NCBI GenBank assembly: GCA_029834535.1
Contig: JAQMWT010000334.1
Location: 124,001 to 188,000 of the forward strand
Length of the DNA stretch: 64,000 nucleotides
Source of the DNA: Chrysophaeum taylorii
Lineage: Eukaryota; Sar; Pelagophyceae; Pelagomonadales; Pelagomonadaceae
Direction: 5' to 3'
Shown here: piece by piece, positions 11,871-37,302 of the stretch
Position numbering within the stretch: position 1 is the first letter of the stretch
Layout of the letters: each line of letters opens with the position of its first letter
Notes under the pieces: generated by a model
What the model was told of the DNA's origin: nothing
What the model saw: only the letters and a program-made list of their open reading frames with translations
Database searches by the model: none
Made by a program: the position numbers and the translations under genes

Positions 11871-12045
11871 TCGCCCGTCTCAGCGACGTGGTCTCCACGC
11901 CACGCGCCACTGAGGCGGAGTAGTAACAAAAACCTTTCAGACTCTGGAGCAAAAGAGAAAATGCAGCGTTCACGCTAGCGCAGGCTAGCGTCATCTTACA
12001 CGCTTCACGGATAAAAACCTTAAAGACAGTGACATTAAAACATTA

Positions 12046-12139
12046 TACCCTCGGCGAGGCTTGAACTCGCGACATCCGGTTTATTAGACCGACGCTCTTG
12101 ACAGAGTGCTACGCACTTAACCAACTGAGCTACGAAGGC
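12046..12139 (-). tRNA. tRNA-Ile(AAU) with 20-nt D-loop insert, copy 1
   Basis: Read on the minus strand: acceptor GCCTTCG pairs with CGAGGGT. The D-stem is GCTC/GAGC. The anticodon arm is TCGGT-CTAATAA-ACCGG, with anticodon AAU at 12083-12085 (complement). The T-arm is GCGAG-TTCAAGC-CTCGC. Box A (TAGCTCAGTTGG) and box B (GTTCAAGCC) are intact. A 20-nt insert (12098-12117) splits the D-loop after GGTTA and begins with the hairpin AGTGC-GTA-GCACT. Without it the tRNA is a normal 74 nt. A T-run follows the 3' end (complement of AAAA at 12037-12040), a plausible Pol III stop. Confidence 0.85.
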
Positions 12140-12270
12140 TCGATCACAGAGCTCCGTGACGCGGCTCCGACTGCGACGCCGCCGACTGCCAACTGACACC
12201 AACCTGACTTCCGTACACTTCCGTAACCAAAACATTTTATAAATCTATTTTAATGTAGCGCACCTGCCCT

Positions 12271-12336
12271 ACCCACGAATTTTCTCAACGACTACCCACG
12301 AATTTTCTCAACGACTACCCACGAATTTTCTCAACG
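12271..12336. repeat. 23-bp tandem repeat, about three copies
   Basis: The unit ACCCACGAATTTTCTCAACG plus ACT is repeated at 12271, 12294 and 12317 with no mismatches apart from the truncated last copy. The rest of 12140-12745 has no supported gene. Confidence 0.85.
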
Positions 12337-12745
12337 AAGGAGCGTCACGCTGTGGGCTTTTTGATGTCCTCGCGACGTTTGGAGTGCGTGTGTAAAGTAC
12401 GAAGGTCTTTCTTTATCCTGTTGATGGAACGAAGTTCAGGGACAGCAACTTAATCCAAACGGCCGTCCGTCTACATATCTTTGCTGGTGACCGTTGAAAA
12501 TAGGAAAACAGTATAAAGTACACAAATGTGTGGTATATTCAGATATGGTCCTGACCGTTAAATGGCATGTTTGAGCAAGTTCGTTGAAGGTTCAAACCCT
12601 TCAACGGTCCAAAAATTTTAAGAGCCGAAGAAATGATGTCGACGCCTCTTAGGAACTCGCGGACCAGCGACGACGTCTCCTGCGTAAAGAGCGCCGCGAT
12701 CGCGAGAGAAAAGAGCGGTGCGATCGCGAGAGAAGCACACCAAAG

Positions 12746-13786
12746 ATGCCGACGCCGCAGGAACTCGCGCACCAAAGACGGCGTCTCCTCGAAAAAGAGC
12801 GACGCGATCGCGAGAGACACCTCGAAAAAGAGCGACGCGATCGTGAGCGACACGCGCGGCAACACCCAAGCGAAGCTGAGAAGCAGCAGAAGCACCGCGA
12901 CATCGACGCCGACCAAAAACGCCAGCATCGTGCTCACGCGGTGCCCGACGACAAGGAAATGGAGCGCGACCGAGCGCGACAGCGTCGTGATAGCGCGCAG
13001 GCGCAGGAGAAGGAAATGGAACGCGAGCGGTCGCGAGAGCGTCGGGCGGCAGACAAGCACGAGGATCCCGCGAAGAAAGGGGCGCGGTGTCGTCATGATC
13101 GCGAGGCGCAACTGGCGGAGCGACACCAACATCTTCGAGATGACCCAGCGGGCCTCGAGCATCTTTACGACTGCGATGCGACTGCCGCTCTTCGAGAAGT
13201 CGTGCGACTCCCGTATCTCGAGACCAAGCTCGAGAAGGCCAACGACCACAAAGCCGCGCGCGACGCACGGGCCGCCAAGGAGAATCGCCCTGTCGAACGT
13301 GGCGAGGTCGACGAACGCGCAGACTTTTTGCAGCAATTGGCTGACGCGTCTCTTCGAGATTGCCGGCGTGATCTTCACGATTACGTAGACGACGACGTCA
13401 GACTCGCCTTTTACGACGTCTTCAAGACCGCGCGCGAGAAATTCGTCCGAAATCATCGCGTCTGCGGATCTTGCTTCGTTAACGATCCCACAGAAACATA
13501 CGAGACGATCCACGTCGCTCGCGTTGCCAAGGGAACTTGGCTCGATTACTCGAACGAGGACCTCCTCGAAAGCCGCGAACGTCGCACTTTCGAAGTCGTG
13601 ATAGGGAAGATCGTTGATGGACATCAGCAGCACGAAATCGTGCACGTCGATGCGGCCGCCTTCTACAAATCGTTTAACGGTATGTTCGACACTAAACGGA
13701 CCGCCCACCATCAACAGCGTCCGGCGTTAGCCCTCTTGACACGGGTCGAGCGCAAAAAAGTATGGAACAACAGCCCCAGGCGTTAA
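12746..13786 (+). CDS. Charged-helix protein, possible Helitron-like N-terminal remnant
   Basis: 346 residues. Residues 1-130 are a highly charged helix of RR-R-E-RH repeats (LLEKERRDRERHLEKERRDR). A less biased domain follows (about 140-346) with a Cys pair in CGSCFVNDPTETYETIHVA and WLDYSNEDLL. Proteins with an Arg/Glu repeat helix followed by such a Cys motif occur at the start of Helitron/PIF1-type mobile-element proteins in algae. That link is an inference, and no Rep or helicase domain follows here. The 3' end lies in short repeats (GCGTTA..CGGGTCG..CGCA, three times between 13727 and 13900). A 391-residue frame on the other strand (12539-13714) is the competing model, and I judge it a shadow. 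Confidence 0.45.
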   Translation: MPTPQELAHQRRRLLEKERRDRERHLEKERRDRERHARQHPSEAEKQQKHRDIDADQKRQHRAHAVPDDKEMERDRARQRRDSAQAQEKEMERERSRERRAADKHEDPAKKGARCRHDREAQLAERHQHLRDDPAGLEHLYDCDATAALREVVRLPYLETKLEKANDHKAARDARAAKENRPVERGEVDERADFLQQLADASLRDCRRDLHDYVDDDVRLAFYDVFKTAREKFVRNHRVCGSCFVNDPTETYETIHVARVAKGTWLDYSNEDLLESRERRTFEVVIGKIVDGHQQHEIVHVDAAAFYKSFNGMFDTKRTAHHQQRPALALLTRVERKKVWNNSPRR

Positions 13787-13926
13787 CGGGTCGTGCGCAA
13801 AATTAAGAGAAAAAAAAATTAAAATAGCGAGCCATATATCCTCACAGCCACAGGCGTTAGTTAGCCCTTTTGACACGGGTCGTACGCAGAAATAAGAGAC
13901 AAAAAAATAAAAGTTATCTTCTTGTA

Positions 13927-14021
13927 TACCCTCGGCGAGGCTTGAACTCGCGACATCCGGTTTATTAGACCGACGCTCTTGACGGGATGCTTTCGCACCT
14001 AACCAACTGAGCTACGAAGGC
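13927..14021 (-). tRNA. tRNA-Ile(AAU) with 21-nt D-loop insert, copy 2
   Basis: The exon sequence is identical to copy 1 (12046-12139) outside the D-loop. The insert lies at 13979-13999 and begins with the hairpin GGTGC-GAAA-GCATC, followed by CCGTCA. Anticodon AAU is at 13964-13966 (complement). T-rich sequence 3' of the gene (complement of the A-runs at 13902-13912) could terminate Pol III. Copy 3 lies 38 bp upstream with no T-run between, so both may be on one transcript. Confidence 0.85.
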
Positions 14022-14059
14022 GCAAAGCACACGAGTACCTGTGCTGACACATTAAATCG

Positions 14060-14156
14060 TACCCTCGGCGAGGCTTGAACTCGCGACATCCGGTTTATTA
14101 GACCGACGCTCTTGACAGGCTGCGCTACGGCAGCTAACCAACTGAGCTACGAAGGC
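14060..14156 (-). tRNA. tRNA-Ile(AAU) with 23-nt D-loop insert, copy 3
   Basis: The exon sequence matches the other two copies. The insert lies at 14112-14134 and begins with GCTGC-CGTAGC-GCAGC, followed by CTGTCA. Anticodon AAU is at 14097-14099 (complement). No TTTT terminator follows before copy 2 begins 38 bp downstream on the same strand, which suggests a dicistronic precursor. Confidence 0.85.
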
Positions 14157-14254: not shown

Positions 14255-14463
14255 AATTCGTAGCACTTGGCTTAAAATTTACTCAAGTGCTTTTCCACAT
14301 GTTCAATTGGTTGTCACAACGTGGTCTGATTGACGCATTGCGACACGCCTGGTCACACCATTCGTAATCACTTGCCTTAAATTTTACTCAAGTGTTTTTC
14401 CACATGTTCAATTGGTTGTCACAACGCGGTCTCGTTGTCGCATTGCGACAAGCCTGGTCACAC
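14255..14463. repeat. 104-bp tandem direct repeat, two copies
   Basis: Copies at about 14255-14358 and 14359-14463 share CTCAAGTG, TTTTTCCACATGTTCAATTG, GTTGTCACAAC, CGCATTGCGACA and CCTGGTCACA. No coding potential. The palindromic GACGCATTGCG-type core is kept in both. Confidence 0.85.
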
Positions 14464-34894: not shown

Positions 34895-36720
34895 TCAATT
34901 TTTCTGTAGCGAGATGTACTCACGGATCTTAAACCATCTGGTCGACAGTGCCTTGGAACGAGATGATCCATCTGGGTTATTAGAGGTGTGAACGGCAGCA
35001 GCATTGTCAGACAAGAGAGGTAGGCTTCTGATGAAGCGCATATCTTCAGCTATCGGGTTGTCATTGTCATCGAAATCAACAGGATCAGCGGTGTTCTCAC
35101 CATTAACATTGTTTACGTAGAAGGTGGGGTTGACGACAAAGGAGAGTTCCAACAGTAGCTTGCGTAGCCAAACAGCTTCATCAGCACAAATACTGAGGGC
35201 AATCAACTCAGCTTCGTGAGTTGAGCAGGAGACAATCGGTTGAAGCTTGCTTTTCCAACCTATAAGGCAGTTGAAAAGATAGAAGACAAACCCGGTGGTA
35301 GATTTCCTATCTTCCTGTGCTAAGGAAGGGGCGTTGTCAGCGTCAACCAAGGCAACTCAGGGATCAAACTGTCCAGTGGATACATCCTGCGGTTGGTAGT
35401 CGACCACAGTGGAGAGATCAATCGATTAGCGGAGACAGTGCGAAGGTGAGCTTCAATAGCATTACCTTTAGGATGGAACCAGAGGCGAAGTGAGCGGTTT
35501 TCCGGCTTCCTCAAGTAGCGTAGCAGGTGTTCTAGCATTTGAACGTGAACATACGTGGGTGCATGCATACCACGCGAACATCTGCCCAAGGCTTGCGAGA
35601 AGTCAGGTCTGCAGGCCGCTTGCATGAACACCAGCTTGCCAAGGAGGGTGGCAAAGTGCGAATTGATGTACAACTCTGTTTCAGAGCTGGGAGTGCCATC
35701 TTTATACTTGAAGGACGATGACATAGGATATTTAAGCGGGGTCAGTTGCCGCAAGACATGGTGATCAGCGAAGAGTTCATCAAGCTTGGCTTGCACATCC
35801 AGAGAAATGGATCCATCAGATGTGCGACACACACGCGTGCCTAGGAGGGTATGGACAGGTTCGAACTGCTCTACAGCATACCGTTTGTGGTGGGCATCCT
35901 GTAACTCAGTACGAAGAGTGTCATCATTGGACACAATAACAATGTCGTCTACAGACAGACTGCATACGACGAACTTAGCATGTGCGGATACTCGAGCATA
36001 TAGGCAAGAGTCCGAATGCAGGCGCTTGTAGCCAAGGCTACGGAAGAAGCCGTCTATCTCTTTGTTCCAAAGAGATGGTGATTGCCGAAGTCCATAAAGT
36101 GACTTCAGCAGTTTCGGTAGGCGTTGGCCCTTGTACTTAGCGTCATCAGGGTCGATAAGCTTAATGCCGTCTGGTAACTGAACATAGACGTTGGCATCAA
36201 TGTCAGACTGAACGAAGGCTTTCGGGACGTCTGCGTGGTAGACAGGCAATTGCTTGTATGCTGCAATAGCCAGTAGTACCCGGATTGCGGTCATTGTGGC
36301 CATTGGGCTGAAGGTGCCAAAGAAATCGGCGCCAAGAGATGCTAGGAAGCCACGTAGCACGAGGCGGGCCTTGTGCTTAACGTATTTGCCTGCAGAGTCT
36401 GTTTTAATCTTCAGCACCATTCTGCTGTCAATAGGGCGAGAGACACCGTCGGGTAAAGAAAGTTTGAAGCAGCCAAAGCGGATAATGTCGTGGAGTTCCT
36501 TGGCGATGGCCTTGAGGTAGGCGTGCCTGTCTTCGAGCGACATACCGTGGAGGCACTTAAGTTTGTATTCGTCGATGGACACGTCCGCTTCTTGGACCTT
36601 ATATTCGTCAGGACCAGCAGTGGCTGGTGAACAATAGTTTAACGACGTTGCGGTCGAGGCAGTGTGCGCGACTTCGGGATAAGCGGAAACAGCGTCAGTA
36701 GGAGGGGTAGAAGAAGCAGA
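34895..36720 (-). pseudogene. Copia reverse transcriptase and RNase H, broken
   Basis: Reverse transcriptase (RVT_2 type) runs from 36560 to about 35350. It includes RPIDSRMVLKIKTDSAGKYV, KHKARLVLRGFLASLGADFF, AFVQSDIDANVYVQLPDG, KLLKSLYGLRQSPSLWNKEI and the catalytic box SVDDIVIV, where Copia elements usually have YVDD. RNase H follows in another frame (35345-34895): DADNAPSLAQEDRKSTTGFV, SCSTHEAELIALS and LSDNAAAVHTSNN. One frameshift near 35340 separates them. The upstream 160 codons of the open frame are only antisense to the neighbouring gene. The Tyr-to-Ser change in the active box and the frameshift make activity unlikely. Confidence 0.9.
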
Positions 36721-36726
36721 TTCCAA

Positions 36727-37302
36727 ATGAATATGGAGATCGCGAGCGCCCAGAAGATTGCCAACGCCAAGATCAACGTCTTCCAGGAAATGGCCACCGC
36801 GGACGACGTCGACGCTATCGCTGACGCCTTGAAAGCGGGCTTCCAGTCGACCACCGACAAGCTGAACAAAAAGATTACGGCCGCCATTCCGCTTGGTGGT
36901 GTTGGTGACGCCGCCGCGCACGCGGGAGATGTCACAAAGTTGACGACGGCTGACCTGGCCCTCCAACAGCAGCAGGCGTCCCAGGACTCCAAGGGGGAGG
37001 AGGAGGAGGAAGCCCTCTTCAGCGCCCAGGTTTACCTGAATTCGTTGGAGCGGTCGACGGCGGCGCTGCTGCCCGAGCTCAAGGAGGACCTCGACGAGGA
37101 AGTCCGGGCGTCGTACTCGAAGCACGATCCCAAGCTTGAACAGCTCGTTACGCTCTGCGACGACTTCGGGTTTACGACGTCATCGCTTGGGTCGTCGCCG
37201 TGTACGACGACGGGTGAAAAGTTCGGGAACACCCTCGCGGCCGCCCAGACGACGTACGCGACCCTCGTGTCCCGGCCGATCGTCGCAGCTCTCACCAAAT
37301 AA
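36727..37302 (+). CDS. Helical soluble protein next to a truncated Copia element
   Basis: 191 residues from the Met at 36727. The open frame extends upstream into Copia sequence, which is not used here. The protein is helical with an early stretch NMEIASAQKIANAKINVFQE, a central QQQQ/EEEEE low-complexity segment and ALFSAQVYLNSLERSTAALL. No signal peptide, no membrane segment, no family recognised. The truncated retroelement ends within about 10 bp of the start codon, so the native promoter and perhaps the true N-terminus may have been lost. Confidence 0.5.
   Translation: MNMEIASAQKIANAKINVFQEMATADDVDAIADALKAGFQSTTDKLNKKITAAIPLGGVGDAAAHAGDVTKLTTADLALQQQQASQDSKGEEEEEALFSAQVYLNSLERSTAALLPELKEDLDEEVRASYSKHDPKLEQLVTLCDDFGFTTSSLGSSPCTTTGEKFGNTLAAAQTTYATLVSRPIVAALTK

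Follow-up and report, generated by a model that had tools for sequence, protein, structure and literature searches.

Putative D-arm introns in three tRNA-Ile(AAU) genes of the stramenopile alga Chrysophaeum taylorii

Can a stramenopile nucleus remove an intron from the D-arm of a tRNA? The question is raised by three tRNA-Ile(AAU) genes of Chrysophaeum taylorii, each interrupted in the D-loop by 20 to 23 nt. The genes lie in G000:C334:124001-188000, a stretch of 64,000 nt (the window; positions below count from its first letter) in an assembly of 70.8 Mb and 697 contigs. The inserts are probably ectopic D-arm introns (20/21), cut by the tRNA-splicing endonuclease, and no tRNA-Ile(AAU) genes other than these three were found; the probability of this reading is put at about 0.75. 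Gene anatomy, exon identity, searches that found no other copy, possible pairing and an encoded splicing machinery were all seen in the analysis.

Three genes with one mature sequence

All three genes are on the minus strand and were located by sequence, cmscan and exon comparison: copy A at 12046..12139 (94 nt), copy B at 13927..14021 (95 nt) and copy C at 14060..14156 (97 nt). Excision of the inserts leaves one identical 74-nt tRNA, with 0 of 74 exon positions different; a preliminary description of the window had located the three genes correctly and given them one common mature sequence. The exon sequence folds to a plain cloverleaf with a standard AGUUGGUUA D-loop. By reading, each gene has the anticodon AAT (AAU in RNA), together with an A box (TAGCTCAGTTGG) and a B box that are unbroken by the insert, as are G18, G19 and the T-loop.

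The anticodon loop, CTAATAA, is continuous. A canonical 37/38 intron was rejected for the inserts, as nothing is inserted one base 3' of the anticodon. A group I or group II self-splicing intron was also rejected: the inserts are 20-23 nt long and the Rfam matches of the window are the three tRNAs only.

At Rfam gathering scores, cmscan of the window gives three matches only, copies A (53.8 bits), B (53.7 bits) and C (39.1 bits); the score of copy C is on a misplaced start, 14134 rather than the true 14156, which is 22 nt too late. ARAGORN run on the window reported none of the three copies (0/3); standard tRNA finders can thus miss genes with a D-loop insert, while cmscan is able to score such a gene, as it did with A, B and C.

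As first read, the inserts are AGTGCGTAGCACTCTGTCAA (20 nt), GGTGCGAAAGCATCCCGTCAA (21 nt) and GCTGCCGTAGCGCAGCCTGTCAA (23 nt), and they occupy position 20/21 of the D-loop in all three genes; the sizes and the common insertion point agree with those described earlier. Since an A is repeated, the insert may be placed behind A21 or behind U20a, and the mature tRNA is the same either way. In the splice register favoured below, which places them between U20a and A21, the inserts are AAGTGCGTAGCACTCTGTCA (20 nt, 12099..12118) in copy A, AGGTGCGAAAGCATCCCGTCA (21 nt, 13980..14000) in copy B and AGCTGCCGTAGCGCAGCCTGTCA (23 nt, 14113..14135) in copy C, all on the minus strand.

On the 3' side of copy A a TTTT (12037..12040, minus strand), a possible RNA polymerase III (Pol III) terminator, begins 6 nt past the gene; on that of copy B, TTTTATTTTTTT (13901..13912, minus strand) is another possible terminator. 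The 38 nt between copies C and B contain no run of at least four T, so these two copies may be co-transcribed. Identical exons, diverged inserts, intact boxes and the T runs after A and B fit active genes, as far as sequence can tell.

Hairpin and tail of the inserts

A 5-bp stem opens every insert (AGTGC/GCACT, GGTGC/GCATC and GCTGC/GCAGC), with loops of 3, 4 and 6 nt. These hairpins had been described before, as had covariation of the first two stem pairs, and both were recovered: pairs 1 and 2 are altered on both sides (AU/GC/GC; GC/GU/CG) while pairs 3-5 are invariant. The hairpin folds alone with pair probabilities >0.9 in 3/3 copies. Counting gaps, 11 of the 23 insert columns vary, distributed as 6/6 in the loop, 2/5 in each stem arm and 1/7 in the tail. 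Variation is thus lowest in the tail, CYGUCAA, whose variable C/U pairs with G18 either way; the shared ending was previously given as YGTCA and is better written CYGTCA(A).

Pairing is standard in all three copies for 31/31 pairs of the structure counted, a structure that included a competing UUGG/UCAA helix; the count was made on an alignment fitted to a model built from copies A and B. For each copy, 2.0-5.3% of mononucleotide shuffles produce a 5-bp stem that starts at the first base of the insert, which is weak for any one copy, and the share is 3.1-8.7% when the last five insert bases are kept in place; because the copies are related, these figures are not to be multiplied. The covariation observed on the aligned set was attained by 54/500 shuffles. 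Covariation among three related copies is therefore suggestive, not significant: the selected RNA structure proposed in the preliminary description is supported, while covariation alone does not decide it. Judged from the sequences, function is argued more strongly by identical exons, diverged inserts and the lack of any synonymous gene in the searches than by covariation.

Splice register and proposed removal

At canonical splice sites, the cut falls between the second and third bases of each 3-nt bulge. A canonical intron presents two 3-nt bulges and a 4-bp helix (PMC10539383), a bulge-helix-bulge (BHB). The register GGUU^A...CYGUCA^AGAGC (^, cut) allows a relaxed BHB in 3/3 copies. In it, exon bases G19, G18 and U17 pair with intron C, Y and G; UU^A forms a clean bulge of 3 nt at the 5' site, the 3' site CA^A lies within a 2x3 loop, and the 5-bp intron hairpin sits flush on the central helix. 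The earlier statement that the inserts are not an obvious BHB thus holds for the strict form; a relaxed one is available in all three copies, with the intron A..CYGUCA lying between U20a and A21.

The whole BHB-like geometry appeared in 0.0017, 0.0005 and 0.0016 of trials with shuffled inserts (A, B and C), figures that are post hoc and come from homologous copies. The alternative register GGUUA^..GUCAA^GAGC was rejected as a strict BHB, having 1/4 central pairs per copy against 3/4 in the favoured register. In copy B the BHB is the minimum-energy fold (-32.2, against -32.0 for the rival helix UUGG/UCAA). That helix was kept as a competitor and rejected as the signal for splicing, since it engages the 3' cut site in pairing.

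For the steps of removal, we infer transcription, cutting at the predicted bonds and ligation. Pol III would transcribe the genes by way of their internal boxes, which the intron leaves unbroken. In the precursor, the 5-bp intron hairpin would stack on a helix of exon U17-G18-G19 with intron C-Y-G, and what remains, a bulged UU^A on the 5' side and CA^A on the 3' side, would be a relaxed BHB. The Sen2 and Sen34 active sites of the tRNA-splicing endonuclease would cut both sites, and RtcB would join the exons into a normal 74-nt tRNA-Ile.

Splicing machinery in the genome

Domains of the tRNA-splicing endonuclease (Sen2-, Sen34- and Sen54-type) and the ligase RtcB are encoded in the genome, judging by domain and structure matches. 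The Sen2-type frame (locus L051, 1186-1869, plus strand) is short, an open frame of 228 aa; it has a PF01974 domain match and a sub-threshold match to PF02778, the N-terminal domain. Its best PDB matches are the endonuclease chains 3p1y, 1r0v and 2gjw; Sen2 is the best among eukaryotic-named subunits, and the frame scores better under archaeal-type chains than under eukaryotic Sen2. A second locus (L052) also matches PF01974, and its best PDB match is one EndA-like chain (5x89), followed by Sen34 chains. We take 3p1y, 1r0v, 2gjw and 5x89 to be archaeal. The Sen54-type N-terminal domain PF12928 is encoded at one place, and a single contig holds RtcB (PF01139) in two pieces.

Ordinary tRNA splicing is probably in use, because two genes at another locus (L097, 847-929 and 1100-1184, minus strand) seem to hold 37/38 introns. 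ARAGORN could not name these two tRNA genes; by eye both read as tRNA-Cys(GCA), interrupted at 37/38 by ~11 and ~13 nt, and their D-loops are ordinary.

Search for other tRNA-Ile genes

A BLAST search of the assembly with copy A gave three matches, all with the insert, which are A, B and C themselves. The pattern GTRGCTCAGTNGGTTA likewise matched A, B and C only (reversed control, 0). The exact Ile(AAU) anticodon-loop/T-arm pattern had 14 matches in the assembly, A, B and C plus 11 others (reversed control, 33); cmscan of those 11 loci found 0 tRNAs at the match sites. The only tRNAs near them are Gly, Trp and Gly, ~1 kb off the match at locus L049. The exact GAU version of the pattern had seven matches in the assembly (reversed control, 9), one on contig C696, presumed to be mitochondrial, and six with no Rfam match; no nuclear tRNA-Ile(GAU) was found. 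These negatives rest on exact patterns and BLAST, which would miss a diverged gene that has a 37/38 intron, and they apply to the assembly as it stands, complete or not. The preliminary description had held that an uninterrupted tRNA-Ile(AAU) elsewhere, with no expression of these copies, would make them pseudogenes; such a gene was sought in this way and not found.

The isoleucine codons in the seven stop-to-stop open frames of the window are 124 ATC, 30 ATT and 15 ATA. With these counts, tRNA-Ile(AAU) must work if it is the sole such tRNA.

Alternative explanations

The three genes could be pseudogenes or silent copies that arose by local duplication of one broken gene, the normal tRNA-Ile(AAU) being absent from the assembly or missed by the searches. 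Eukaryotic D- and T-arm insertions are described, in the excerpt of PMC4090602, as occurring mostly in one of many synonymous genes and as being taken for pseudogenes; the three genes pass the test that this implies, because no intact synonymous gene was found by BLAST and exact patterns. The crowding of three copies within 2.1 kb, adjoining a dispersed repeat, suits a duplicated relic, and so does the chance that a diverged gene with a 37/38 intron went unseen, the RF00005 family search having scored 63 of 1258 candidates. Against a relic stand an unchanging tRNA body next to an insert in which nearly half the columns vary, both promoter boxes, present by reading, and the T runs past copies A and B. 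Given identical exons, diverged inserts, intact A and B boxes and no other tRNA-Ile found, pseudogene status is unlikely.

Retention of the insert would produce a mature tRNA-Ile of 94-97 nt, its D-loop enlarged by a small additional arm. The preliminary description had left another processing signal or retention possible; the intron reading is supported, and retention is the less likely outcome. The hairpin needs no help from the exons to form, G18, G19 and the T-loop are undisturbed and the strict BHB is missing, all of which a retained arm would accommodate. Such an arm would have no reason to pair bases needed for contact between the D-loop and T-loop, yet the length and loop of the insert vary while the CYGTCA tail, able to pair with G18/G19, stays. 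The genome also encodes splicing machinery, and we know of no retained insert of such size in a cytosolic D-loop. Retention is therefore improbable. Its consequence, that the main isoleucine codons are read by a cytosolic tRNA with a fifth arm of ~20 nt in the D-loop, whose sequence drifts while the hairpin is kept, is rated more improbable still.

It is very doubtful that some other nuclease removes the insert by cutting the hairpin, as could be supposed from the more stable fold that hides the BHB in copies A and C, from the many introns of the Guillardia nucleomorph without a defined BHB (PMC3978253) and from a nucleomorph splicing mechanism that is called unexplained in the excerpt of PMC4090602, since the BHB-like register in 3/3 copies yields exactly the expected 74-nt product and the usual enzymes are encoded.

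Points against an intron

Interpretation of the inserts as introns has to contend with several points. Firstly, the inserts do not form a strict BHB, with two 3-nt bulges 4 bp apart: only three of four central pairs form, the fourth being a U-U mismatch, and A14-G15 is unpaired opposite the 3' site, so the BHB is relaxed. Secondly, the register was picked after the structure had been viewed. Thirdly, the UUGG/UCAA helix folds better in copies A (-30.6 vs -28.1) and C (-33.6 vs -30.9), a gap of 2.5-2.7 kcal/mol at which the BHB pair probability is ~0.01. Fourthly, human TSEN54, TSEN34 and TSEN2 recognise the body of the tRNA, D arm and elbow included (excerpt of PMC10539383), and by analogy a D-arm intron would disturb the features read. 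Such an intron should thus need recognition by local structure; this kind of recognition has been proposed for Cyanidioschyzon (PMC3978253).

Finally, the habit of carrying a D-loop insert may be limited to one gene family, because no other such tRNA was found and the D-loop is ordinary in 33/33 of the remaining non-organellar tRNA genes that were read. These 33 are the ARAGORN genes on the contigs examined other than C696 and C697; 27 were chosen via the RF00005 search, which is biased towards genes that have no insert, and the remaining 6 adjoin those 27 or an Ile(AAU)-pattern match. The RF00005 search of the assembly gave 65 matches and listed only copy C of the three.

Three D-arm patterns, which do not extend to Met-, Trp-, Val-, Asp-, Glu-, Gly- or His-type D-stems or to tRNA-Ile(UAU), revealed no further tRNA with a D-loop insert. 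TAGCTCAG had 18 matches (reversed control, 116), of which three are A, B and C and the other 15 have no Rfam match. TGGCCGAG had 32 matches (control, 21), and neither of the two checked has an Rfam match. TGGCTCA had nine matches (control, 69), and all nine loci were checked with no Rfam match.

Relatives elsewhere numbered 0 in the viral contigs and 0 in the bacterial and archaeal genome contigs searched. A looser viral scan gave 30 stretches, all rejected: in 23 the pattern had skipped the ordinary D-stem and ended at a later GAGCG, while by eye six are one non-tRNA family and one is two truncated tRNAs in tandem. An additional weak tRNA match of 29.8 bits was noted at L088 (627-695).

Surroundings and other loci

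A dispersed repeat with a T-loop-like hairpin (CTTCGTTGAAGGTTCAAACCCTTCAACGAAGG in the fuller copy at L081) and an open reading frame (ORF) lie at 12500-12640 and 12653-13786 of the window (plus strand). The repeat has ten matches in the genome, one of them in the window, and 6/9 of the others are followed by a similar ORF start, ATGATGGCGACGCCT. The ORF in the window is an open frame of 377 aa with a repeated RRRLLEKERRDRERH motif and no Pfam match. Because this ORF lies between copy A and copies B and C, a tandem array of tRNA genes may have been divided by an element. A 23-nt unit is repeated three times in perfect tandem between copy A and the dispersed repeat (12269-12337), and a 105-nt unit twice (14256-14463, 90-92% alike) ~100 nt upstream of copy C. 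At 35323-37179 (minus strand) is an open frame with an RVT_2 reverse transcriptase domain, a family presumably of Copia type.

Outside the window, ARAGORN identified four tRNA-Val(GAC) genes and tRNA-Ala(GGC) on non-organellar contigs (L100 3561-4250, L028 1501-1573 and L099 1011-1084). Eukaryotic nuclei normally use A34 in the Val and Ala boxes; contaminant contigs, miscalled genes or unusual decoding may each explain these tRNAs. A U6 small nuclear RNA gene lies 150 nt from a tRNA-Ala(TGC) on the same strand (L092, 1018-1345, minus strand), forming a small Pol III cluster.

From their tRNAs and open frames, contig C697 (103.6 kb) is read as plastid and C696 (58.0 kb) as mitochondrial. The latter carries a reverse-transcriptase-like open frame of 348 aa (L018, 3-1046, plus strand) that by eye resembles a group II intron protein. 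The plastid D2 protein has the PDB chains 8iwh and 6j3y as its best matches, ahead of 7y5e; we take the first two to be diatom photosystem II and the last to be red-algal. This match fits a photosynthetic stramenopile and is not proof of one.

Comparison with known systems

Eukaryotic tRNA introns are considered to lie at 37/38 since the endonuclease takes its measure from the body of the mature tRNA, according to the excerpt of PMC3978253. If the present reading is true, and all the genes found for an essential tRNA have a D-arm intron, the endonuclease of this alga, whose lineage probably has a secondary plastid, would be forced to use a local, BHB-type signal like that proposed for Cyanidioschyzon. 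It raises the question of whether such flexibility was inherited by host nuclei, gained with the red endosymbiont or evolved again. No stramenopile tRNA with a D-loop intron appeared among the matches listed in the literature searched. D-arm tRNA introns, so far known mainly from red algae, relict algal nuclei and archaea, probably reach another nucleus, that of a stramenopile, and the putative introns are a probable new case of the Cyanidioschyzon and Guillardia type, provided that they are spliced.

Canonical 37/38 introns would share the same presumed enzymes; their position differs, and the ruler based on the mature body cannot apply as usual to an insert in the D-arm. In the red alga Chondrus crispus, tRNAs with non-canonical splice sites in the D- and T-regions are reportedly present in PlantRNA 2.0. 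A D-region intron in an algal nuclear tRNA would be alike; the host, a red alga, is unlike Chrysophaeum.

Archaea offer a precedent for the position. The 20/21 site is a known ectopic intron site there (PMC4090602), and archaea, above all Crenarchaeota and Nanoarchaeota, have 20/21 introns with a strict or relaxed BHB (excerpts of PMC4090602 and PMC3978253). Archaeal introns differ from those proposed here in their enzymes and hosts.

The Guillardia theta nucleomorph is alike in having insertions of 3-24 nt at non-canonical sites, whose removal was shown by reverse-transcription PCR, and in reported genes with D- and T-arm introns (PMC4090602); many of its introns are without a defined BHB (PMC3978253). 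Its introns sit in the relict nucleus of an endosymbiont, whereas the Chrysophaeum genes are on one of 697 contigs totalling 70.8 Mb.

A close parallel in an algal nucleus is Cyanidioschyzon, where a D-arm intron with a BHB-type site also interrupts an otherwise standard tRNA; D-arm introns in this alga and in archaea, mentioned in the preliminary description, are borne out by the excerpts of PMC9602550, PMC4090602 and PMC3978253. In Cyanidioschyzon an intron interrupts the D-arm of tRNA-Ile(UAU) (PMC9602550), and its permuted tRNAs use the 20/21 junction (PMC3978253). More than 62% of its nuclear tRNA genes have introns (PMC9602550), in comparison with the one family with D-loop inserts found in Chrysophaeum. 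The Chrysophaeum genes differ further in their anticodon, AAU, in having a single intron, and in a BHB of three pairs and a mismatch.

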